From positions 1 to 64,000 of the IMG/VR virus record IMGVR_UViG_3300000172_000001: a DNA stretch of 64,000 nucleotides; one strand, given 5' to 3'. The stretch is from a virus. The notes beneath the pieces were generated by a model that saw only the letters and a program-made list of their open reading frames with translations, ran no database searches and was not told where the DNA came from. The position numbers were made by a program, and so were the translations under genes. Below, piece after piece: positions 13,574-62,854 of the stretch (position 1 is the first letter of the stretch; the number at the start of each line of letters is the position of its first letter).

Positions 13574-15913
13574 CTAAACTTCTTTTAAAATTTTGAGTAA
13601 AGCTTCTCTTTTATCTTCCCATCTGAATTTAGTTTCAACATTCTTAATACACTCTAGATTAATATCCTTTTCTTTGTCGGATTCTTTCCATTTTTTGTAT
13701 TCAATATCTAAAGCTTTCATCATTTCAAAAGGGTCTACCACTGGGCGTAAATGCCCATTATCCATAGACATATTAAATATTGCTAAATTAGGTACTATAT
13801 GCCCCGTGTCTCCTAACATTTCAGGAATAGCGCTATTTTTTGGGGCTATACTTGGAGTACCTGTTGCTGCCGCTTCAATTAATGATAAACCACAATTATG
13901 GACAGTTACTTGAGCGCAGGTATATGATTCTCCATTAGGTACTTCTAAATCATAGCCTAAAAATTTAGGACTATTTGAAAATTCATCTGAAGAACTTATA
14001 CTCTCAATAGGTAAATACACAAACTCTTTATCCATCTCTATATTAGAATGAGAAGTTTGGTCAAACACTAACGTTATGATGTATTTGTAATTCTCTTCCC
14101 TAATAAAGCTTAATAGCCCTGTACTCAAATATAAGTCTCTTAACAAGTATGCAAACTCTTCAGACTTAACTTCATATGATAAAGTATTTTGTCCGTGAAT
14201 TACATCAGACATTATACCATTTAGTAACTCTCCCCTTAATTCTTTATCTAATGCTAAAAAATATGTAGGAATAGTTCTTTCTGATGCTTTTTCTCCAAAT
14301 AGATGTCTAAATAATTTTAATAAAGGTTTTGCTGCTATTCTAACATAGCCAGCTTGATCAGAATATGTACCATCATATGAACCTTCTACATTAAAATATT
14401 TATTAAATATATAATCAACATACTCAAATAATTCTGCTTTTCTATGTTTAAAATTAAACATTATACCTCTATCTGTTACATGCCCACATCCTAAGAAAAT
14501 TCCAAAAAACTTTAAAATCTCCGCATTTATTGGTATGAACCTTTGCAAACTACTTCTTCGTTGTTTACTATTTATTTGGGTATCTGTTATTTCATAGTTA
14601 GGGTGTGGAAGTCCCATATCTGCTAAGTCTATTTGTGTTGGAATTTTATTTTTCCATTTAGGACGTCGTAAAGCTACTATGTCTCCGACGTTCAATAGTT
14701 CCGCACGCTTATAACTTTTATCTTTTAATAAAAAAGGATGATCGTGAGAACAAAGAATTGGTTTTGAAAACACATCCATAGTTATGGAATATATTTTTCC
14801 ATCAAAAGGAGTTCCTAATGTTTTCTTTACTTTCGACCAATTACCCTCGTCATTTATTACTTCATCTTCAGGGGTAACATGCTCTATTCGTTTATACCCA
14901 TCTCTACATAAAATTAAGGTGCCTTCGTTTAGTTTTCCTTCCCCTATTGTAGAAGATATATTAATATTTGAGGCATTATAAATTTTGTTAATTTCTGAAG
15001 AAGGTACTTCACCGCTGTATATATTCCTAGCATTTACTCCTAGTATAGTATCGTCCCCATCAGTGTCGCTATCTACAAATCCAGCATTTAATAAGTGATT
15101 CTGTAATAAGTTTGCGGCTCCTGGCCCCATAGTCATTTCTGCTGACATCATATGTAAATACAAATAAACGTCCCGTCTATTCCTTTTAACTACTTCTACA
15201 ATATCACTTTCAGGACACATATTTAAATCGCATTTTTTACGATTAATAGGCATATGATTTCCACATTTACAAACTTTGTACCCTTTTGCAAACATACTGA
15301 AGGCTCGTGCAGTTCCGGGTATAAACTTCCGTGGTTGAAATCTATTAACATTACAAACAGCAAACTTATTTGCCCATTTATAGTCTTTTCTTATTTCTTG
15401 GATTTTATCGTAAGGTAGTGGATAAAAAGTAGTTTCGTTTACACCATGGTATAATTTGTGTATAGGTATTTTGATCTCGTAAGTATCTTTTAAAATTTCA
15501 ATTGCCCAATCTGTGTAAGCTACTACTGCTGAGGAATGCTCAAATATTTTCTGCCATCCCACGCTAGGAGGTGTACCGTCTATAGGGAAATAAGATACTA
15601 TCTTAGTATTTGGTAATACTTTTTTTAATTCGGGAATGATTTCTGAAATATGGAAGATATCTTGAAATAAGAATATTACGTCAGGCTTTTCTGCTTGTGC
15701 AAGGGCACACAGTTTCTGGCCGCCCAGGGGATCTTCTTTAGTTACAGGGTATACGAAATATTTAGAAGTATCGTATTTAGTATTTCCAAAGTAGTTTATA
15801 CCTAGTATAGATACTTCATAATAATTGTGTAAATCTTTAAATAAGTTTTCAGCTACTATTCCGAACCCCGTCGGTACTAAAAAATCACTCCAGATAAATA
15901 ATTTAGGTTTCAT
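13574..15913 (-). CDS. GT4 glycosyltransferase interrupted by an intein
   Basis: 779-aa precursor. The N-extein (1-326) and C-extein (674-779) join to give a GT4 enzyme: FIWSDFLVPTGFG at the start, NRFQPRKFIPG at 190, and the donor-site motif STIGEG+CGLSLIEAAATG split by the intein. A Cys cluster near 215-233 (CKC..C..C) may bind zinc. Mature extein length would be 432 aa. First gene of the leftward glycosylation operon. The intein lacks the usual Cys1, so splicing may be impaired. Stop TAG. Confidence 0.8.
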   Translation of the reverse strand: MKPKLFIWSDFLVPTGFGIVAENLFKDLHNYYEVSILGINYFGNTKYDTSKYFVYPVTKEDPLGGQKLCALAQAEKPDVIFLFQDIFHISEIIPELKKVLPNTKIVSYFPIDGTPPSVGWQKIFEHSSAVVAYTDWAIEILKDTYEIKIPIHKLYHGVNETTFYPLPYDKIQEIRKDYKWANKFAVCNVNRFQPRKFIPGTARAFSMFAKGYKVCKCGNHMPINRKKCDLNMCPESDIVEVVKRNRRDVYLYLHMMSAEMTMGPGAANLLQNHLLNAGFVDSDTDGDDTILGVNARNIYSGEVPSSEINKIYNASNINISSTIGEGKLNEGTLILCRDGYKRIEHVTPEDEVINDEGNWSKVKKTLGTPFDGKIYSITMDVFSKPILCSHDHPFLLKDKSYKRAELLNVGDIVALRRPKWKNKIPTQIDLADMGLPHPNYEITDTQINSKQRRSSLQRFIPINAEILKFFGIFLGCGHVTDRGIMFNFKHRKAELFEYVDYIFNKYFNVEGSYDGTYSDQAGYVRIAAKPLLKLFRHLFGEKASERTIPTYFLALDKELRGELLNGIMSDVIHGQNTLSYEVKSEEFAYLLRDLYLSTGLLSFIREENYKYIITLVFDQTSHSNIEMDKEFVYLPIESISSSDEFSNSPKFLGYDLEVPNGESYTCAQVTVHNCGLSLIEAAATGTPSIAPKNSAIPEMLGDTGHIVPNLAIFNMSMDNGHLRPVVDPFEMMKALDIEYKKWKESDKEKDINLECIKNVETKFRWEDKREALLKILKEV
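13895..14935 (-). other. Intein with degenerate homing-endonuclease domain
   Basis: Residues 327-673 of the precursor. Block A is recognisable (LNEGTLILCRDGYKRIEH) but the first residue, normally Cys, Ser or Ala, is Lys (codon AAA at 14933-14935). Block B is LCSHDHPF; block F LGYDLEVPNGESYTC; block G TVHN followed by extein Cys. A LAGLIDADG-like motif (FFGIFLGCGHV) has Cys where the catalytic Asp is expected, and the second motif is also poor. The HEN is probably dead. Confidence 0.75.
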
Positions 15914-20388: not shown

Positions 20389-23300
20389 ATGGCAGATTTA
20401 TTAAATTACAACAAACAGAACTCAAATATCCAACAGGCTATCCTAAAGTCTATAAATAACGTTTTTCCAGTCACCGCCGGTGATAGAACTCTAGAAATAG
20501 CTAATTTAAAAATAGTTGACAATCTTAGTTCTGACGATTTCCCTAAACAGAAAGAGTTAAAAATCAATAGGCGTAGCTGACAAATACCTTTATACGCTGA
20601 TATACTTTTAAAAGATAGCACTGGAAAAGTTATTAACCAAAAAAAGAATGCTAAGATAGGAAATATCCCTAAATTAACAAATAGGTTTACTACTATTATT
20701 GAAGGAAATGAATACCAAACCGTTAATCAACTTCGAAGAAAGCCGGGTATATATGCTCGTATTAAGAAGAATGGTGAGTTAGAAAATGAATTCAATTTAG
20801 AAAAAGGTCTTAATTTTAAAATGCAATTAGATCCTATTTCTGAAAAATTTGTAGTTATTTTCGATAATAGAAAATATAGACTCTGAACTTTATTAAATTT
20901 ATTAGGTGTAGGCGATGAGGCTATGCGTAAGGTTTGGGGTACCAAACTATTAGAAGTTAATAAGAAGAATGCTCTCAACACAGAAATTTCTGAAATGACT
21001 TCTATTTTCACTAAAATTTATCATAGAGATCCTAAAGACTACTCAGAAGTTCTTACCAAATTAAAAGACTATTTTGAAAACTTCACTAAAGTAGACCCCA
21101 ACACTACCCTCTTAACTTTGGGTCGAAAACACTCTAATGTTAATGGACAAGCTTTACTAGACTCTTCTAAGAAATTATTAGATATTAATAAAGGTACAGC
21201 AGAACCAGATGACAGAGATAGTTTAGTTTTTAAACAAATTTTATCAGTAGATGACTTACTTATTAATCATTTTGATAAACAAAAAGACTCTCTTACTAAA
21301 AAATTACGATCATCTATGATGTTCAAAGATCAAGTACGAGAAATAGTAAGTGCTGGTACTTTTTCAAAACCTATTAAACTATTTTTTACTACTGGCGATT
21401 TAAGCTCAACTCCTCCACAAACAAATCCTGTAGCTATTGTATCCGAATGAAGAAAAACCTCTCCTATGGGTACTGGTGGAATAAAAAGTAAGCACTCAAT
21501 TACTGAAGAAACTAGGGATGTACAGCCTACACACTTAGGGTTTATAGACTCTACAGCTTCTCCAGAAGGTTCAAAAATTGGAGTAACTTTAGGAATGACC
21601 TCTGAGGTTGTTAAAGAAGGTAATGAGCTGAAATCTCCAGTATATAATACTTCTGGTAAACTAGTATATATTAGTCCTTTAGAATTCTTTGAAAGTTATG
21701 TAGTGTACCCAGATCAATATGAAATATCTGGCTCTACTATTACTCCTAAATTTAAGTCAATACACGCAATGTATAAGGGTGAACTTATACGTATTGCCCC
21801 AAGTAAGGCTAATTATTATATAAGGTCTCCAAGATCAATGTTTTCTTTTGCCGCTAATGCTATTCCATTTTTAGACGCAGTTCAGGGTAATAGAAGTGCT
21901 ACTGGTGCTCGTATGATGACTCAAGCTATGGCTTTAGATAATAAAGAAGCTCCTTTAGTACAAACCTATAGAGATAAAGATTCTACTTATGAAAAGATTC
22001 TTGGTAATTTTCTTAATCCAGTATACGGACCTAATTTAAAAGGGAAACCTCGTACTGGAACAGTTAGTAAAATTACTAAAGATTATATTTATATCATTGG
22101 AAAAGATGGATCTAAAACTAAAAAAGGTTTATATAACAATTTCCCATTAAATCAAGATGGTTATTTAGATTCTACTCCTTTAGTAAACGTGGGAGATGAG
22201 GTTAATAGTAAAACTATATTAGCTGAAAATAATTATTCCAGTGGAGATACCCTGTCTATAGGAAAAAATTTAACTACAGCCTATATGACTTATAAGGGTT
22301 ATAATTATGAAGATGGCGCTGTAATTACAGAATCAGCTGCTAATAAACTTTCTCATTCTATGCTCCATAAAGTAAATGTATTTTTTACTCCTAAATTATC
22401 TGCATTTAGTTTAGAAAAATTTAGTGCCTGGTACCCAGACGCTATAACCCCAGATAATAGAAAAAAATTAGATAGCTCTGGTATTATTAAGGTAGGAGAA
22501 ACAGTTAATCCAGAAGATGTATTAATTGCATTTTTAGTTAAGCGTGAAATGGACGACCATGAGGTAGCTTTACATAAATTAAGTAAATATACTTTTGGAC
22601 AATTTAATAAAAATTTAACTGAATGGTCTGAAGATGAGCCGGGAGTGGTAACTGATGTAGTTAAGACTGGTAGAAACATAGATATTTATGTTAAATCTAC
22701 CCATCCTTTTAAAGAAGGTGATAAACTTTCTGGGCGTTATGGTAATAAATCTATTGTTACTAAAATTATTCCAGACGCAGATGCCCCTCATAGAGAGGAT
22801 GGTACCCCTATTGACATAATGTTAAATGCTCATGGAGTTCCTTCTCGTATGAACATTGGTCAAATTTTAGAGACGGCAGCTGGTAAAATTGCTAAAAAAA
22901 CTGGTAAACCTTATATTGTTAAGAATTTTAATAATCCAGAAGGTGACAGATCTGCAGAAGTTTTAGCAGAAATGAAAGAACTTGGTATAGAACCTGATGA
23001 AACTTTAACAGATGGTAAAACTGGCAAAGCTTTTGATAATCAAATTTTTGTAGGACAACAGTATTTTTTCAAACTTCGACATATAGTCAACAAAAAATTA
23101 GGGGCTCATGGTATCGGCCAATATGATATAGACGAACAGCCTGTAGGAAAGGGTTCACAGCATGTAGGGATTTTAGATAATTATGCATATCTGGCCCACG
23201 GAGCAAAAGCCAATTTACGAGATATTGGAGAGATTAAAGGAAGGTCTAACGATGAATACTGAAGAGACCTACAATTGGGACTGCCGCCTAGTAAGCCTTC

Positions 23301-26300
23301 TAGAAACTTTGTATTTGAAAAGCTAACAACCTATATTCAAGGTCTAGGTGTTAATGTTACTAAAAAAGGTAATAAACTACAAATTTTACCATTAACTGAC
23401 AAAGATGTTACTAAGCTGTCTAATGGCGCATTAGAAAAGCCAGGAACTATGTTAGTTGGTAAAAATTTAATGACTAGAGCCGGTGGATTATTCGATGAAA
23501 AGATTACTGGTGGAATTAGCGGCACGTTATGGTCTCATATTAATTTAGCAACTAATTTACCTAATCCTATGTTTGCTCCTGCAATTACTAAAATATTAGG
23601 TATTACTGACAAGAAATATAGCGACATTATAGATGGGAAATTAAAGCTAAAAGGTAAGTCTGGAATTCCGGCTATTATCTCTGCTTTAGAAGCCTATGAT
23701 GTTGACGCTGAGCTTGTTAAGGCTACAGCAGCTTTAAAAACTGCCCCTGTATCCTCGGTGAATAGTTTAAATACTAAGGTTAGGTATCTACAAAATTTAA
23801 GTAGAATGAAATTAAACCCAAAAGAAGCCTATACTATTACTAAAATACCAATATTACCTCCTAAATTTAGACCTATCTATTCTTTACCTACTGGTGATTT
23901 AATGACTAGCGATATCAATAAACATTATAGAGATATTGGGGTTATAAACACAGCTTTAAAAAGTACTAAAGATATTATAGGCGCAGATGAGGTTTTAAGA
24001 GCTAATAGATCATTGTATGATTCTGTAAGAGCTATGCAAGGTTTTATAGAACCTATAACCTATGGCGGTGAAAAGTATAAAGGGATTTTAGAAGAAATAG
24101 GAGAAAGTAAAAAAGGCTTAATACAAGGAAAATCCTGGGGCAAGCGTCAAGACTTAAGTGCTCGAAGTACTATCATTGTTGACCCCGATTTAGGTCTAAA
24201 TGAGGTAGGTACTCCATTTAAAATAGCTTATTCTATTTATAAACCTTTTATTATAAAGAATTTAAAGGAATTTGGATTAAAAGCTACAGCCGCAGTAAGG
24301 GAATACAAAGATGAAACTGATTTAGCAAAATCAGCTCTCGTTGATGAAATGAAACGTAGACCCGTAATTATGAACAGAGCTCCTACACTTCATAAGCATG
24401 GAGTTCAAGCTTTTAAACCTCAATTAGTAGATGGTAAATCTATTAGAATGAATCCTCTTGTTATGAGAGGTTTCAACGCTGATTTTGACGGCGATACTAT
24501 GTCTGTAATGGTACCTGTTTCTGCTGAATCTGTAGAGGAAGCTAAAAACATGATGCCTAGCAAGATCTTATTTAAGCATGGAGATAACTCTATTGTTCCA
24601 GAGATTAGTAAAGAATATGTTTTTGGAATACACCAGCTAAGTCTTATTAAAGAAAAATCTAAAGAATCTTTTAAATCTATTTCTGACGCTAAAAAAGCCA
24701 AAATTCCATGGACTACTCAGTTTGATCTTAACGGTACAAAAGTGACTATAGGGCAGTTTTATATTAATTCTGAATTACCTGAAAAATTAAGGGATTACGA
24801 ACGAGTATTAACTGCTAAAGTGTCTGAAAAACTTTTAACCACTATCGCAACTACTTACCCTAATTATTTTACAGATGTAATTAATTCTTGGAAATCTTTA
24901 GGAGCTATGCAGGCCACTTTACATGGCAATACCTTATCATTAAATGACTTTGTAATAGATAGAGCCTATAGAGATGATCTTTTAAAAGAAAAACTTCCTG
25001 CAATTAATAAATTAAAAGGGCAGACTAGAATTGACTCTTTAAACAAATTAACTATAGAAGTTCAAAAAGCTCAGGATAAAAGTGTACGGGGTAGAAATAA
25101 CATCTACGACATGTTGGATTCAGGCTCATTTGGTAAAACTGATTCTGTACGACAAATTTTATCTATGCCTGGGGTTCTAATGGACACCAAAGGCCGTCCT
25201 ATCCCCTATCCTGTGTTAAAATCGTATGGAGAGGGTTTAGATACCCCTTCTTATTTTGCGTCCTTATATGGAGTTCGTAAAGGTAATATTGACAGGTCCG
25301 TAAATACAGAGCAATCTGGTGCTTTAAACAAAGCGTTATTAAACATTAATAGACGTTTGTTAATAACTGTAGAAGATTGTAATACTCGTAAAGGTTTAGA
25401 AATTGGCGTAAATGACAAGAATGTTATAGATCGCATGTTACTTAACTCTGTATCGGGTGTGGGGAAAAGAAATGACATTGTAGATTCAAATGTTTTATTA
25501 AGAGCTAAAAAGGATAAATTAAAAACTCTATGGGTTAGATCGCCATTAACTTGCGAAGCAGTTGAAGGGATTTGTCAAGCCTGTTATGGGTTAATGCCTA
25601 ATGGAAAATTATCTGTATTAGGAGAAGCGGTAGGAGTATTAGACGGACAGGCCATTACCGAAAGATCTACACAATTAGTTATGCAAACTTTCCATACAGG
25701 GGGAACTGCCTTAGGTGGCGGTGGTGGTGGTGCTGTAACTGGTTTCCCACGTTTAAAACAATTATTTTTTGTACCTCAAAAATTAAGTGGAAAAGCTACG
25801 TTATCTACTGTAAAGGGGACTATAAAATCTATTAAGAAAAATCTTACTGGAGGGTACTCCGTTAGGATAGAGGGTTATGGGGAAAAGAATGATAAAACCT
25901 TTACTATACCTTCCGGTAGACTGCCTATTGTAACAGAAGGAGTTAAAATAGGAATTGGAGACGCCATATCTGATGGAATTATAAAACCTCAGGAACTTGG
26001 AGAATTAAAGGATCACTTATCAGCTCAGAAGTATTTAGTAGAAGAAGCTTCAAAAGTTTATGGGGGAAAATTCTTTAATAAAACATTTGAAACCGTAATT
26101 CGTGGAATTAGTGATAATGCCCAAATTACAGTAGCTCCTGAGGGTAGCGGATTCCTAAGAGGAGATAGAACTACTATAAGTTATTTAAACGCTCTAAACA
26201 AAGATAGAAAAAAAGAAAAACTTCCATTAATCGAATATGACGCATATTTTAAATCAATAGACTCATTAAATGCTGATAGCGACGATTGGTTAACTAGAGT

Positions 26301-26448
26301 TAGTGCGAACAGAGTAAAACGGGGCTTAACTGTAGGAGCTGCAAAAGGCTTATGAGCTAACATTCGAGGTAAAGACCCTGTACCAGCGTTCATTTATGGA
26401 GATAACTTTGGTAAAAACACTAATTATCAAAAGGGGGAATTCTTTTAA
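20389..26448 (+). CDS. Phage multisubunit RNA polymerase, beta and beta-prime fused in one frame
   Basis: With TGA as Trp a single frame of 2019 codons runs from ATG 20389 to TAA 26446-26448; five TGA (codons 64, 166, 354, 958, 1989) would otherwise break it. The first ~960 residues are beta-like (GTGGIKSK, RDVQPTHLGFIDSTASPEG, YNYEDGA, GDKLSGRYGNKS, GKGSQHVGI). The rest is beta-prime-like: RRPVIMNRAPTLHKHGVQ, catalytic NADFDGD at 1363-1369, AVGVLDGQAITERSTQ, TFHTGG of the trigger-loop region. The junction (RSNDEY-W-RDLQLG) has no stop. Both subunits are compact versus bacterial ones. It would transcribe middle or late phage genes. Weak ribosome site. Confidence 0.85.
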
Positions 26449-38791: not shown

Positions 38792-38795
38792 ATTG

Positions 38796-38871
38796 TGGCC
38801 GGGACAGGGCTCGAACCTGTAGCTGACAGGGATTTAGAGTCCCCCGCTCTATCCAATTGAGCTACCCAGCC
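38796..38871 (-). tRNA. tRNA-Arg(TCT), second copy
   Basis: Acceptor GGCTGGG/CCCGGCC, stem GGGGA/TCCCT, loop CTCTAAA. Second isoacceptor copy for AGA, a frequent codon in AT-rich DNA. Confidence 0.9.
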
Positions 38872-40471: not shown

Positions 40472-40839
40472 TAATTATTTTTGATTGTTATCGTTATTTT
40501 TGTATCTTTGGGAATTAGTTCCTTTCCTGGGCACCATCTCGGACTTGGTATATCTCCAAAAGTAGTAAAGCAGTTTTCGCCTCCAATTTTTGGAAAAGTT
40601 GTTACCTTACAGCAATACTGCATGTACTGTATTCCCTGCCCATTTGCAGTATATTCATGAGTATCTACCAAGTATTTACAACCGTTACAATACTGATCGT
40701 AGTTATCTATTTCCCAAATGGTAGCTAAGTCATATCCTTTACTTTCACAGGTAGGGCAAGGAATTGGCCACGGTACTAAACCTTTAGCGTCATATTTACC
40801 CTTACCCTCGCACGTTTTACAAACTATTTTTACTTTCAT
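40471..40839 (-). CDS. Zinc-ribbon protein with DnaJ-like Cys repeats
   Basis: 122 aa. CKTCEGKGKY and CPTCESKGY are CxxCxGxG-like DnaJ zinc-centre modules at the N terminus; a later CNGC.. and CC hold further Cys. Protein or RNA binding, unknown target. Confidence 0.6.
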   Translation of the reverse strand: MKVKIVCKTCEGKGKYDAKGLVPWPIPCPTCESKGYDLATIWEIDNYDQYCNGCKYLVDTHEYTANGQGIQYMQYCCKVTTFPKIGGENCFTTFGDIPSPRWCPGKELIPKDTKITITIKNN

Positions 40840-41390
40840 TAGCAGTTACCTATAAATCCACGATCCTCTTGTAAAGAATCATAAATATCGGGAATTAACC
40901 CCTTTTTAAATCTTTGTTCTTTCCGATGAGCTAATACTACATTTACGGCTGCTGCTAAATTAGTACAGTGGGCCGTGGGTAGTACCACAAATCGATGACA
41001 ATGTTGTAATGTTTTCCAATCCAGCCCACCATCTTCTGGGCCGAATACATACACTGCGTTTTCAGGATGTTCAAAATCAAATAACATTTCAGATCCAGGC
41101 CTTAATTCTATTGCTACCGGAACTGTGTCTTCGCTAAAATTTTTCAATGTATGTTTTAACGTATCAACTCTATGCATAGATACTTCTTTGTATCCCTTCA
41201 TACGTTCTTCCCTTGGAAGTCTATATTTTTCTGTCCATTCATCTGGATGCTGCACTCTATGTCCAGTCCAATAAACTTGCTCTGCTCCCCAACATGACGC
41301 TGCCCTAACTGTAGCTCCAACGTTAACTGCAAACTTTGGGTTTGTCAGCATTATTGCAGGAGATATACCTTTAATTCTTTTAGGCTTCAT
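40839..41390 (-). CDS. SPOUT-class RNA 2'-O-methyltransferase (TrmH/TrmL-like)
   Basis: 183 aa. Motif 1 NPKFAVNVGATVRAASCWG, motif 2 YVFGPEDGGLDW and motif 3 LPTAHCTNLAAAVNVVLAHR form the SPOUT knot. Enzymes of this group methylate tRNA ribose. In this window many tRNAs are encoded, so a tRNA target is plausible. One-base overlap with its neighbours. Confidence 0.8.
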   Translation of the reverse strand: MKPKRIKGISPAIMLTNPKFAVNVGATVRAASCWGAEQVYWTGHRVQHPDEWTEKYRLPREERMKGYKEVSMHRVDTLKHTLKNFSEDTVPVAIELRPGSEMLFDFEHPENAVYVFGPEDGGLDWKTLQHCHRFVVLPTAHCTNLAAAVNVVLAHRKEQRFKKGLIPDIYDSLQEDRGFIGNC

Positions 41391-41750
41391 TTATAGCTCC
41401 TTAAACTCTTCCACAAATTTTGCCCAGGTTCCTGCATGGTCTAATCTAATGGATATTACATTATCATTATATCCGCATTGTATATAAGTACTAGATATGG
41501 AATGTAGTGTATAAGCCACTGCCATACAAGGGCCCGTGATATCCATATTAGCATACGGAGTCCCATGTAATATGCTAATTATGTCAGGATCTATTATTTG
41601 GGCATACTTATTAACATCGCATGAGTCGCGGAGTCCTGCCTGTACTATAGCTCCTCGTATTAGTGTTAGGGCTTCTATCTGCCAAGTTTTTTCTGAATAG
41701 GTAGGGACTACTGGGTTAGTATAATCTTTATATGTTTTAATTTGTATCAT
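41391..41750 (-). CDS. Unknown protein
   Basis: 119 aa; ends HAGTWAKFVEEFKEL and contains PDIISILHGTPYANMDITGPCMAVAYTL. One-base gap to the methyltransferase. No family recognised. Confidence 0.5.
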   Translation of the reverse strand: MIQIKTYKDYTNPVVPTYSEKTWQIEALTLIRGAIVQAGLRDSCDVNKYAQIIDPDIISILHGTPYANMDITGPCMAVAYTLHSISSTYIQCGYNDNVISIRLDHAGTWAKFVEEFKEL

Positions 41751-41774
41751 TTTATTTTTTGGTTAAGTTATCAG

Positions 41775-42345
41775 TTATAAACTAAATCGCCGAATAGAAG
41801 GGATCTTGGGGCTCTATTCGACGACTCTTCTCCAGTATTGCTACTGGGTAAAGGTGTTTCAAGTTGTTCAGGTCGCTCACCGAGGATCTCATGAATGTTT
41901 GGCGTTAGTTCGATCGGTGATCAACCCGATAGCGTAGGCCCTCTCAACAGATCGCTGTGTGCGATACATCCTCTGTTCCAATCGTACATCCTCTGTGCCC
42001 TCAAGGCAACTTGAAAGTTTAATTAATGTATATAAATAGTGTGCTGTTACGCCAAAGACAACTAGGAGGCACTCCTAGCTACAGCCCCCAATGCCTTTTC
42101 CCTGGAGGTAGATTTTATCCAACTGCTACGTCATGTTTAGAGCATGAGTTATCACTCTTTAAAAGATGGCTGCTTCTAAGCCTACTTCCTACTTATAATT
42201 TGGTCGCGAGTGTAGTTTATTACACTACATTCCCTCTCTAACAAAGAGGTTCCTAGACTTAGACGAACTCGCGTTAATTGGTGGGGAAGTACAGGATCTT
42301 GCACCTGCGCTGATATGCATCAGCATATATCCGGATAACTTCCCC
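41775..42345 (-). ncRNA. Large structured RNA (about 570 nt) with a 23S GTPase-centre motif
   Basis: A gene-free stretch inside a tRNA array. In minus-strand orientation it contains nested helices: GGGGAAGT/ACTTCCCC, CGCGAG/CTCGCG, GCTGAT/ATCAGC, CTAGGAG/CTCCTAG, TCAAG/CTTGA and a 3' hairpin CGTCGAATAGA/TCTATTCGGCG. At 42140-42190 the minus strand reads GGCTTAGAAGCAGCCATC then TTTAAAGA, matching helix 43 of the 23S rRNA GTPase-associated centre. Size and tRNA context recall the GOLLD/ROOL ornate RNAs, but I cannot assign a family. Exact ends unknown. Confidence 0.65.
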
Positions 42346-42350
42346 TCTAG

Positions 42351-42450
42351 CAGTTAGGATAGGACTTAAACCTATATATGTTACTAATCGCCAGTGACTG
42401 TTCACGCCACCCGTTTTTCACATGTCTTAGTCTATTTGGACGACCTAACT
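42351..42450 (-). tRNA. tRNA-like gene with oversized anticodon domain (100 nt)
   Basis: Acceptor AGTTAGG pairs perfectly with CCTAACT; T arm ATAGG TTTAAGT CCTAT is normal; D stem GTC/GAC. Between D and T arms there are about 50 nt (ATGT..ACAT helix enclosing GTGA-ACAG-TCAC) instead of a 17-nt arm plus variable loop, so no anticodon can be named. Confidence 0.5.
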
Positions 42451-42452
42451 AT

Positions 42453-42528
42453 TGGTTGCGGTGACAGGACTTTAACCTGTGTCCTCCCCCCTGCCTGGGG
42501 GGCGAGCTATTCTCTGCTCTACACCGCG
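42453..42528 (-). tRNA. Initiator-like tRNA with abnormal anticodon loop (GGC)
   Basis: Acceptor CGCGGTG/CACCGCA leaves a C1:A72 mismatch, the hallmark of initiator tRNA, and CCA is encoded. The anticodon arm is CCCCC-CAGGCAG-GGGGG; position 33 is A rather than U. By position the anticodon is GGC (Ala codon GCC). T loop TTAAAGT is also unusual. Could be non-functional or specialised. Confidence 0.55.
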
Positions 42529-60051: not shown

Positions 60052-61116
60052 TTATTCTCCAAACTTAATTAAGAAGTCAGGGTTAATTACTTTAAAACTA
60101 AAGCTACCATCTCTCGCTCTAATCACAATTCCCTCTCTTGGGATATCAGGATTTAGAAGGCTTGGGCCTTTAGAAAGCTCTACTAATTCGTCTACTGTAT
60201 GGTTTAACACCATCTTTGGATTAAGGACAGGTACAGTATTAAATATTCTATCTAACCCTCGTACGCGAACTTCCCCCTCAGTTGTGTAGTCCCCAAATAT
60301 AAGATTTAGAAAGCTCTCAATACTTCCAAAGCCACCATCTTGTATAGTAAAAGCGTTAAACATTTTTACTTCTGTAGCAGACAATTTGTATTTATTTTTC
60401 TGAATCCCTGGCCCCAGTAATTCTCCTTGGAAAATTACATTTATACCAAGTTTAGACATTTTCTCTTCTGCGTCAATATCTCTAGCGACTTTCCAGAAAG
60501 AATTTTTGTCATTCTCTATTAGGTCAAGCTTCCGACTGCATACTCCGAAAGGTGTTGCTTTTCGGTAGTTAGGTGCATAATAAAAGGTAGATGACGATCC
60601 ATCTAATTTCTCTGTTATGTAGCACTCTGTTCCTGCCCATTCTTTTATTTCATCTACAAGATTCTGTACACGTTCTTCATCCGTCTTAGGAATCCAGGAA
60701 GGTCTGTGGCCTTTAATCTGGCCACTTAAGCATGCTGGAATGGGTGCTTCATATTTTACTACTTTCAAAAGTTCACTTACGTCTGTTCCCACTTCGGGGC
60801 CATCGGCGAGCTCTTCGAAAGTATCTAATGGCATGGCTAGCCCTTGACTAATTTGCTTACGCAATTTTATAGTTCGTAAGCGATAACCTCTTGTGCCGTC
60901 ATCTATTGTTTTGACACCGTTTTTCTTTAAGAATTCAAACGGCTCTATTTCTGGCAACAAAGAGTCCACTTCAAAGTAGACGCATTTATCACCTATTTGA
61001 AATTCCCCCTTCTTAACTACTAGATGCCAGCCTTTTACAGTTGCTTTTTCAATTACATCTGCTCCAGAGATAGGCTCTAAATTAGCTATGAGTTGGATTG
61101 TTGCTAAATGTCTCAT
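60052..61116 (-). CDS. RNA ligase, DraRnl/Rnl5-like
   Basis: 354 aa. N-terminal OB-like domain (KGWHLVVKKGEFQIGDKCVYFEV), then nucleotidyl motif I TEKLDGSSSTF with catalytic Lys, motif IV EGIVIRARDG and motif V SFKVINPDFLIK. Adenylates and seals RNA breaks. N-terminal OB before ligase domain is typical of Rnl5. Confidence 0.8.
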   Translation of the reverse strand: MRHLATIQLIANLEPISGADVIEKATVKGWHLVVKKGEFQIGDKCVYFEVDSLLPEIEPFEFLKKNGVKTIDDGTRGYRLRTIKLRKQISQGLAMPLDTFEELADGPEVGTDVSELLKVVKYEAPIPACLSGQIKGHRPSWIPKTDEERVQNLVDEIKEWAGTECYITEKLDGSSSTFYYAPNYRKATPFGVCSRKLDLIENDKNSFWKVARDIDAEEKMSKLGINVIFQGELLGPGIQKNKYKLSATEVKMFNAFTIQDGGFGSIESFLNLIFGDYTTEGEVRVRGLDRIFNTVPVLNPKMVLNHTVDELVELSKGPSLLNPDIPREGIVIRARDGSFSFKVINPDFLIKFGE

Positions 61117-61117
61117 T

Positions 61118-61639
61118 TTATAATTTCCATTCTTGTTTTAAAAAGTTTATTCTGGCTGTTATACTTTTATAATATTGCCAACCTGCTGGAGACTCCCAGC
61201 GATTGCCCGCCCTGTAGGATCTTACAGTTTTGGACCAGCTACCATTATGTCTCTCATTCTTCCAATAGGTTAGTTCAGTTATTGCTTCTCTACAACTAAG
61301 TATGTGACTATCTATGAGCCATTGGGCCACTACATTCCTATTAAAGGGTGTGTCCTCTATCTCATCTCTATGTCTACTCATATATGTGTTGATATTGATA
61401 TGGTGAGCTCCTGCGGAAGGGTCTTGCAAATTTACAAGGTATTTACCTCCTGCAGATTCTTGCCACTCAATAGCAGCTAATGTCCACCCTAAATCAAAGG
61501 GCACCCCATATTCATAGGATGCCCGTATTGATTCTTGTTGATGGCTTGTTAAAGCTTTCCATTCCTCAGGTAAGGCTCCAACGCATAAACATATATTTGT
61601 GAGTAGTATTAGTAAATATCTAATCGAGCCAACTTGCAA
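61118..61639 (-). CDS. Transglycosylase/lysozyme-like protein
   Basis: 173 aa. N-terminal hydrophobic signal (RYLLILLTNICLCVGA), then TLAAIEWQESAGGKYLVN with a Glu as in SLT lysozymes, and AGAHHININTYM. Would cut peptidoglycan in the periplasm. Overlaps the next gene by 20 nt. Confidence 0.6.
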   Translation of the reverse strand: MQVGSIRYLLILLTNICLCVGALPEEWKALTSHQQESIRASYEYGVPFDLGWTLAAIEWQESAGGKYLVNLQDPSAGAHHININTYMSRHRDEIEDTPFNRNVVAQWLIDSHILSCREAITELTYWKNERHNGSWSKTVRSYRAGNRWESPAGWQYYKSITARINFLKQEWKL

Positions 61640-61784
61640 TTGCAGCTATACCGCCTACAGCTAAAAATAATAAGACGAAGCCAAGCCACAGCGGGGCAGT
61701 TATCCACCACCAACTCCATGTAATGACTCCAACTAACTTTAGGACAAGTAATACTATAAATAGTATGAATCCGGGATTTTTCAT
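61620..61784 (-). CDS. Small membrane protein (Fragile-X-F-type)
   Basis: 54 aa from ATG 61784, whose ATGA overlaps the previous TGA stop. Two hydrophobic helices with WSWWWITAPLWLGF, a pattern of short phage membrane proteins. Confidence 0.65.
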   Translation of the reverse strand: MKNPGFILFIVLLVLKLVGVITWSWWWITAPLWLGFVLLFLAVGGIAAIASWLD

Positions 61785-62854
61785 TTTTTCTCCGTTTGTT
61801 TTGGTTTTAAATATTTCCAAATTAAGGGCTTTATGTTTTTCCCTTGTAACATTGTAAATACTAAAGAAATTATTTGTTTATTTCCAATATTTATGACTTT
61901 TTCTGCTACTGCTTTGGAAGTTCGTTTTTTCATATCAATTGATTCTGGGAAACTAGTTATAAGGTGCATGTATTGTTTACAAGCAGTGTTTGCTAATATC
62001 ACATAATTCTCTCTAAAGTTATCTATAGAGGTATGAAGCCATTTATAGTATTCATCTGGTACAATATCAATTAACTCTTGTATATCTAATTCTGGATCTG
62101 ATAAGTATTTCCATACCGTTTTATCATTGCAAAGCTGCAATATACGGTGATGTCTTACATACCAGTCAAATTTTACTTTAACTCTGAACCCGTTATCATA
62201 TGCTAACACAAATCCTTCTTTGTTTTCTTGATTTGGTACATTATATAACTCACTTACATCGCAATCATGTTCATATAGCTCTGTTCTTGGTATACAAGTA
62301 GTAACAGCGTGCAACCCTATCTCTCTGCCAGTAAACGTATCGCGTACTGCCAATAGCCTTAGGTCGCTCTCTGGGTAGGTGATACAGGTCATCCCCCCTT
62401 TCTTAAGAGTAGGTGTTAAGAACTCATAGCAGTATGTGAAGTCCTCCCTTATAGTAAGGTCAGGGTATTTTTCTTCTAAGACTACATTGGCCTCTGTAAT
62501 ATATTCATTATCAAAAGAGCCTCTTGTAGATTTAATTAAATGCCCCCTCCACATAACCATTATAAATAGACATCCGTCTAGTTTATTAAAAATGCTGTAG
62601 TGGTCATCTGGGAGCTCGATACCTAGTCCTTCTAATTCTGTATAGTTGAAAAATTTTCTAAAAGGGTTGGCTACTACAGTTCCATATTCATCTAGTATAA
62701 GACCCCTACATCTAGTAGTGGTATCGTTCCAATTTCGAGCATACTGTGTGGCATGGGTATAATTATATATCCAAAGTGGAAACTCTGGATGTTTTCTTCG
62801 CTTTACCCACCCTTCCTTTATTTGGGTTTCTAAAACTGTTAGGACTGTATTCAT
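61781..62854 (-). CDS. RNA ligase, T4 Rnl1-like
   Basis: 357 aa. TRCRGLILDE, IFNKLDGCLFIM (motif I Lys), CYEFLTP, NKEGFVLAYDNGFRVKVKFDWYV (motifs IV-V) are as in RnlA. Seals tRNA cleaved by host anticodon nucleases, together with PseT. Ends in TGA (ATGA overlap). Confidence 0.85.
   Translation of the reverse strand: MNTVLTVLETQIKEGWVKRRKHPEFPLWIYNYTHATQYARNWNDTTTRCRGLILDEYGTVVANPFRKFFNYTELEGLGIELPDDHYSIFNKLDGCLFIMVMWRGHLIKSTRGSFDNEYITEANVVLEEKYPDLTIREDFTYCYEFLTPTLKKGGMTCITYPESDLRLLAVRDTFTGREIGLHAVTTCIPRTELYEHDCDVSELYNVPNQENKEGFVLAYDNGFRVKVKFDWYVRHHRILQLCNDKTVWKYLSDPELDIQELIDIVPDEYYKWLHTSIDNFRENYVILANTACKQYMHLITSFPESIDMKKRTSKAVAEKVINIGNKQIISLVFTMLQGKNIKPLIWKYLKPKQTEKK

Follow-up and report, generated by a model that had tools for sequence, protein, structure and literature searches.

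The locus and its surroundings

We analyzed a window of 64,000 nucleotides of viral DNA (positions 1 to 64,000 of IMG/VR record IMGVR_UViG_3300000172_000001). Positions 41775-42345 of this window contain two tRNA-like genes, an RNA that carries a copy of the GTPase-associated center (GAC) of 23S rRNA, and a second, unrelated folded RNA (Table 1). An earlier reading of this DNA, made from the sequence only, had taken the span for a single RNA of about 570 nt with nested helices, but it consists of four units.

The GAC (positions 1051-1108 of 23S rRNA; we use E. coli 23S numbering for all positions in the GAC copy) is the minimal domain for binding ribosomal protein L11, and it touches translation factors. 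The sequence-only reading had noticed an 18-nt copy of helix 43 (H43) on the minus strand, and this is borne out: GGCTTAGAAGCAGCCATC, at 42182-42165(-), has no other match in the window even if 3 mismatches are allowed, and none of 100 shuffled sequences had any match. It had also judged the next hairpin to be unlike helix 44 (H44). In fact, the tip of H44 (GGCGTAACAGCACAC) is present at 42053-42039, and it was overlooked because an insert of about 100 nt separates the two halves. So, the idea of a ribosomal copy within an RNA of a tRNA-array phage stands, but the copy extends to the whole GAC instead of H43 alone. The observation is confirmed, in that the window encodes a whole GAC that is split by an insert.

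Table 1. Features at positions 41775-42345 of the window.
Feature	Position	Strand	Remarks
tRNA-like sequence	42345-42279	-	Read by eye, without an ARAGORN call
tRNA-Asn-like gene, anticodon GTT	42201-42272	-	Read by eye, without an ARAGORN call; ends 3 nt before the element; context, outside the GAC RNA
GAC-mimic RNA, whole, from closing stem to closing stem	42031-42197	-	About 167 nt; from anatomy, family, covariation, and covariance-model match
H42-like closing stem, 5' strand, TATAAGTA	42190-42197	-	Pairs with 42031-42038; covaries across the family
GAC copy, 5' half (23S 1055-1089: H43 and the 1082-1088 junction), GGAAGUAGGCUUAGAAGCAGCCAUCUUUUAAAGAG	42155-42189	-	
Variable domain, inserted at 23S position 1090; has a separate closing helix	42054-42154	-	About 100 nt; closing helix covaries across the family
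GAC copy, 3' half (23S 1090-1104: H44 tip), GGCGTAACAGCACAC / GGCGUAACAGCACAC	42039-42053	-	
H42-like closing stem, 3' strand, TATTTATA	42031-42038	-	Covaries
Second structured RNA, about 245 nt	about 41775-42022	-	z = -3.2; closed by TTAAACT/AGTTTA-type pairing

With Infernal (cmscan), 42196-42138(-) aligned to positions 1089-1152 of the bacterial LSU rRNA model (LSU_rRNA_bacteria, RF02541) with 29.2 bits and E = 6e-7. The model's gathering threshold of 50 bits was not reached here or in two other members of the family (19-20 bits). The tRNA model (RF00005) had no match at 42197-42031. By itself, the GAC RNA of the window folds with ordinary stability (z = -0.8), so the case for its structure rests on covariation among its relatives and not on folding energy. 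As for the second structured RNA, its relatives among the loci that we compared were all within the same phage species, and a joint query of the phage collection found none.

Several other genes of this phage are of note. Genes for beta- and beta-prime-like subunits of a multisubunit RNA polymerase (Pfam Rpb2_6 and Rpb1 domains, 21466-26355(+)) imply that it has its own RNA polymerase. At 60052-62854(-), there are genes for RNA ligases of two different families (RNA_ligase/PHA02142 and T4 Rnl1-like), a set that recalls phages in which cleaved tRNAs are repaired. The window also encodes a phage tmRNA with the tag GRPAVKLAA (30297-30670(-)) and a tRNA with the anticodon CTA, which would read TAG (38795-38871(-)). 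A SpoU-family (SPOUT) methyltransferase gene (40839-41390(-)) is 0.6 kb downstream of the element. We considered this gene as an A1067-type methyltransferase and rejected it: it has no sequence relative in the PDB, and its matches to TrmJ, RlmB, and TrmL of NCBIfam are far under the cut-offs. Finally, a glycosyltransferase-like gene (13574-15913(-)) is apparently split by an intein (the Pfam Intein_splicing match is slightly under its cut-off).

Members of the family

The sequence-only reading had named conservation in related phages as a check, and both halves of the copy recur in 15 isolated phages and in many viral contigs. In viral contigs, a pattern for the H43 half found 57 loci, and only one of these (L050) is ordinary 23S rRNA. 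With a pattern restricted to the H44 half, there were at least 119 matches. Together, the patterns and the isolates yielded 146 elements (115 of them distinct), with inserts of 44-366 nt among the matches listed, and a covariance model matched several loci that the simple search had overlooked. A collection of bacterial genomes gave 45 pattern matches, with the full element in 18, including one with an insert of just 26 nt. The records from this collection include assemblies of Clostridia, Bacteroidota, Neisseriaceae, and Bdellovibrio. In a Clostridia assembly (L181, 3180-8000), the element is within an array of 25 tRNAs, in a stretch that may be viral or chromosomal. All 115 viral elements and all 18 from bacterial assemblies carry both halves.

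In cultured phages, BLAST located the H43 half, and both halves were then confirmed in the 15 isolates: GAP32, CBB, Aeromonas 4_4572, UNO-G1W1, pf16, Milchi, Astolliot, Vibrio 2.275.O, ME3, XacN1, Serratia BF, Erwinia SNUABM_12, Erwinia Kaldavass, Xanthomonas XbC2, and Xanthomonas XaC1. In pf16, the element is near 29,562 of KU873925. None of these 15 records has an annotated RNA at the element. (In UNO-G1W1, Milchi, and Kaldavass, small called ORFs overlap part of it.) In a control set of 27 large contigs with tRNAs, the element was present in one, so perhaps a few per cent of large tRNA-bearing phages have it.

Could these matches be contamination with rRNA, fragments of rRNA, or chance similarity? 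This is true of L050, L064, and small records that are named as phages, which do hold 23S rRNA. The remaining loci are another matter: the split architecture, the covariation described below, and the shared position of the element in sister phages rule out all three for the family, and we give this explanation almost no weight. Also, no other segment of LSU rRNA is present in the window, and the element is between tRNA-like genes, so it is not within an rRNA gene.

Covariation and conservation of the core

We aligned the scaffold of 48 sequences with less than 80% mutual identity, with the insert trimmed to 7+7 nt. In this alignment, 93.3% of the cells were paired, versus 68.5% in shuffled alignments, and 315 cells had double changes (versus 102±8 if shuffled). 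The covariation score was 0.606, as compared to 0.138 for shuffled alignments and at most 0.194 if the partners were slid by 1-3 columns. The covarying pairs are in the closing stem, in H43 (1057-1081 and 1058-1080), in the four-pair helix that closes the insert, and at 1082-1086. This last pair, which we take to be part of the tertiary core of the GAC, swaps between U-A, C-G, and A-U and is paired in 98% of cases. For example, it is swapped between related jumbo phages (UUUAAAGAG in GAP32 versus UAUAAUGAG in BF). It is also marked as paired in the Rfam consensus for rRNA. The covariation extends to the features that define the GAC fold, namely the H42, H43, and H44 helices and the tertiary pair. 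At the level of aligned sequences, this demonstrates that the secondary structure of the GAC and the tertiary pair 1082-1086 are under selection.

Because the search patterns had fixed some of the letters, we recounted conservation on the halves that had not been selected for. In the 5' half (57 elements), positions 1060, 1066, 1072, 1084, 1085, 1087, and 1088 were invariant, 1067 was A in 79%, and the E. coli letters were kept at 1068 and 1070 in 74%. Among the 46 elements used for the 3' half, positions 1096 and 1097 are variable. A is found at 1095 in 43 of the 46, and also in 43 at 1101, which is U in rRNA. Positions 1060 and 1088 presumably make a tertiary contact in the L11-bound fold, and the tip positions (1067 and 1095-1097) presumably face tRNA and factors.

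The conserved letters stop at 1055 and 1104, and beyond these positions only pairing is kept. The copied unit thus coincides with the 58-nt L11-binding domain (1051-1108), and this 58-mer has been described in complex with L11 (PMC10161774). The conserved sequence does not reach into the adjoining L10/L12 region of 23S rRNA.

A variable insert at a fixed site

Across the viral and bacterial elements, the insert ranges from 26 to 366 nt. The insertion site is fixed at 1090, and the helix that closes the insert is near-universal. We sorted 103 inserts into one class of 28, one of 8, one of 5, several of 2-3, and many singletons, of which the insert in the window is one. Most of the 28-member class conserve GGCACCCCGKAAMYGGUAAGGCU near the 3' end, and the 8-member class has GGGGAAGGACAAG ... 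GACCCUUAGAGCA. A fold common to the class I inserts comprises the closing helix and a terminal hairpin. By eye, these inserts seemed to have stretches that resemble RNase P or the peptidyl transferase center, which we rejected as Rfam lends them no support. Two other inserts besides the window's had no match in Rfam at E ≤ 10. In some members (L076, L105, L122, L123, and L166), H43 is itself interrupted by another inserted hairpin near 1077-1079, so there are two sites at which the copy tolerates inserts.

The inserts thus fall into many unrelated classes on an unchanged core, and the core is the constant part of the RNA, the insert the variable part. As read from these comparisons, the elements form a family of phage RNAs whose core is a copy of the GAC, opened at the internal loop of H44 to receive a variable domain.

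Variable inserts would suit an arms race, and one possibility is an enzyme decoy: in place of the ribosomal GAC, the element would be recognized by a host ribonuclease, toxin, or rRNA modification enzyme, which would spare host rRNA or phage translation. The tRNA arrays of these phages and the two RNA ligases of the window's phage would fit with a setting of defense that targets translation. However, we know of no phage-defense nuclease that cuts the GAC, and the SpoU methyltransferase gene is not associated with carriers of the element (2 of 39 carriers versus 2 of 27 controls). We consider an enzyme decoy to be quite improbable.

Genomic setting

A tRNA is found within 1 kb of 75 of the 115 elements, and in all 75 cases, the nearest tRNA is on the same strand. 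The density of tRNAs is 1.19 per kb by the elements versus 0.63 per kb elsewhere in the same loci. In 28 cases, no more than 10 nt separate the end of the upstream tRNA from the stem (the commonest spacing is 5 nt), and in 29 cases, the downstream tRNA starts within 15 nt of the element. As these tRNAs are flush with the stem, ordinary tRNA processing would presumably free the RNA.

The strong association with tRNA arrays also suggests that the element might act on tRNAs or translation factors. Specifically, like the ribosomal GAC, the copy might directly touch the elbows of phage or host tRNAs, translational GTPases, or RelA, and it might hold, protect, or inspect the tRNAs of the array. In RelA complexes, the tRNA elbow does touch the L11 stalk (PMC4974054). 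However, the GAP32-, XacN1-, and BF-type elements stand apart from tRNAs. Furthermore, it is the tip that faces tRNAs and factors (1067 and 1095-1097) that is relaxed, while the inner core is fixed. A binder of tRNAs or factors therefore seems unlikely.

In GAP32, CBB, BF, and their relatives, the element is in a gene-free gap that follows a small ORF (198 bp) of conserved position. This conserved location might indicate a leader that acts in cis: the GAC copy would sense L11 and regulate the downstream gene or genes, much as ribosomal protein leaders work by mimicking rRNA in cis. But the downstream neighbor is most often another tRNA, without any consistent gene, and the GAP32/BF elements have a closing stem that, with a run of Ts, resembles a terminator. 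Also, no L11 gene is present in the 39 carrier genomes or records. We view regulation in cis as very unlikely, even more so than an enzyme decoy. As for L12 as a partner gene, there is none in the record of the window's own phage.

HD hydrolases were found in 15 of 39 carriers versus 4 of 27 controls (P = 0.03, raw, or P = 0.06 once near-duplicates are removed), and the carriers have larger genomes; the co-occurrence of ppGpp hydrolases with the element is suggestive only. The record of the window's phage encodes a relative of small alarmone (ppGpp) hydrolases near 93.2 kb, outside of the window (L223, 1315-1917(-)), and XacN1 (L218) has stronger relatives of these enzymes.

Proposed function

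The copied unit is the L11-binding 58-mer, it stops short of the L10/L12 region, its core is kept, and its factor-facing tip is relaxed, so we infer that the RNA probably binds L11. Neighboring tRNAs are flush with the stem and, in all 75 cases with a tRNA within 1 kb, on the strand of the element, which argues for action in trans. We propose that the element is a trans-acting mimic of the GAC that binds host uL11, as a decoy or as a scaffold, and that the likely benefit to the phage is weaker synthesis of (p)ppGpp. We put the probability of this joint reading at about 0.5.

In the proposed mechanism, the RNA would be freed by tRNA processing or, in the GAP32/BF group, ended by the terminator-like closing stem. 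The freed RNA would fold like the ribosomal GAC domain and would bind host uL11 through the C-terminal domain of that protein, so that it would work as a decoy or else as a scaffold for docking. With less functional L11 at ribosomes or in RelA complexes, (p)ppGpp synthesis during infection would be weaker, which would resemble the relaxed state of relC mutants. The insert may bring in a partner, or it may protect the RNA.

The activation of RelA requires the N-terminus of L11 (PMC4974054), so the capture of L11 could weaken this activation. Still, that capture of L11 has an anti-stringent outcome is doubtful. Similarly, it is a speculative idea that viral mimicry of rRNA strips or diverts uL11 (or RelA with uL11), leaving relaxed ribosomes and no rise of (p)ppGpp during infection, as a form of counter-defense. 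As ribosomes far outnumber the likely copies of the RNA, stripping L11 from ribosomes would demand very high expression, or else the RNA would act on new or free L11. Also, the GAC copy differs from the Rfam LSU model at 1101 (A for U) and at 1089-1090, differences that might affect L11 binding. That the GAC is conserved as a whole is not enough to tell which of its partners is the target. Variation at position 1067 among the copies makes a thiostrepton-like ligand, which the sequence-only reading had suggested along with L11, less likely.

To our knowledge, mimicry of rRNA is known mainly from the cis-acting leaders of ribosomal protein genes. Here, a whole GAC is on a free-standing phage RNA that is selected in phages of many hosts and is not annotated as an RNA in the isolates examined. 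The element points to a viral route for acting on the translation machinery. Also, a hundred-odd natural variants of the GAC, with a permissive site for inserts, inform the folding of the GAC and RNA engineering.

Comparison with known RNAs

The phage GAC-mimic RNA belongs to none of the RNA families that we searched. The sequence-only reading had proposed a search of Rfam with Infernal, and no Rfam class turned out to contain the phage element: LSU rRNA was the only family in Rfam 15 to match, and it did so below its threshold (the window and 20 further loci were searched at the gathering threshold and three elements at E ≤ 10). Around the element (41700-42480), the only matches at E ≤ 10 besides LSU rRNA were two at chance level. 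We found no published description of such a GAC-mimic RNA in the full-text literature, whose scope leaves out most subscription papers.

The closest relative is the GAC of 23S rRNA (RF02541), which shares the secondary structure, the pair 1082-1086, and the boundaries of the L11-binding domain, and whose sequence in H43 and at the tip of H44 is nearly equal. In contrast to the ribosomal GAC, the phage RNA is free-standing and outside of rRNA, is opened at 1090 by 26-366 nt of inserted sequence that has a separate closing helix, has A at 1101, has a relaxed tip, and is closed by a stem of free sequence.

GOLLD (RF02032) and ROOL are also structured RNAs of phages and prophages, with functions that are not known, and are often near tRNA islands. 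GOLLD has been reported to pull down ribosomes (PMC12286853). The sequence-only reading was reminded of these RNAs by the size of the span, but most members of our family are roughly 100-470 nt, so the phage elements are much smaller. They do not match either RNA in sequence or by model, and no copy of the GAC has been described in GOLLD or ROOL. Specifically, the GOLLD model (threshold 150 bits) had no match in the window, nor at E ≤ 10 in 41700-42480, and the Rfam searches of the window, of the 20 further loci, and (at E ≤ 10) of the surroundings of three elements gave no ROOL match. The GOLLD model does find a genuine GOLLD above threshold at another locus (L012, 685-1176(-)), where it and a small GAC-mimic RNA are separate genes of one tRNA array.

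The autoregulatory leaders of ribosomal protein genes (for example, those of L10, L20, and S15) resemble the phage element in that an RNA mimics the site in rRNA that a protein binds. However, these leaders act in cis on ribosomal protein genes and lie upstream of the cognate gene, while the phage element has no linked ribosomal protein gene and is mostly between tRNAs. Finally, OLE RNA binds the ribosomal protein RpsU and has been suggested to sequester it (PMC12286853). OLE is thus another non-ribosomal RNA that binds a ribosomal protein, but it is bacterial, it binds a different protein, and it does not contain a GAC.
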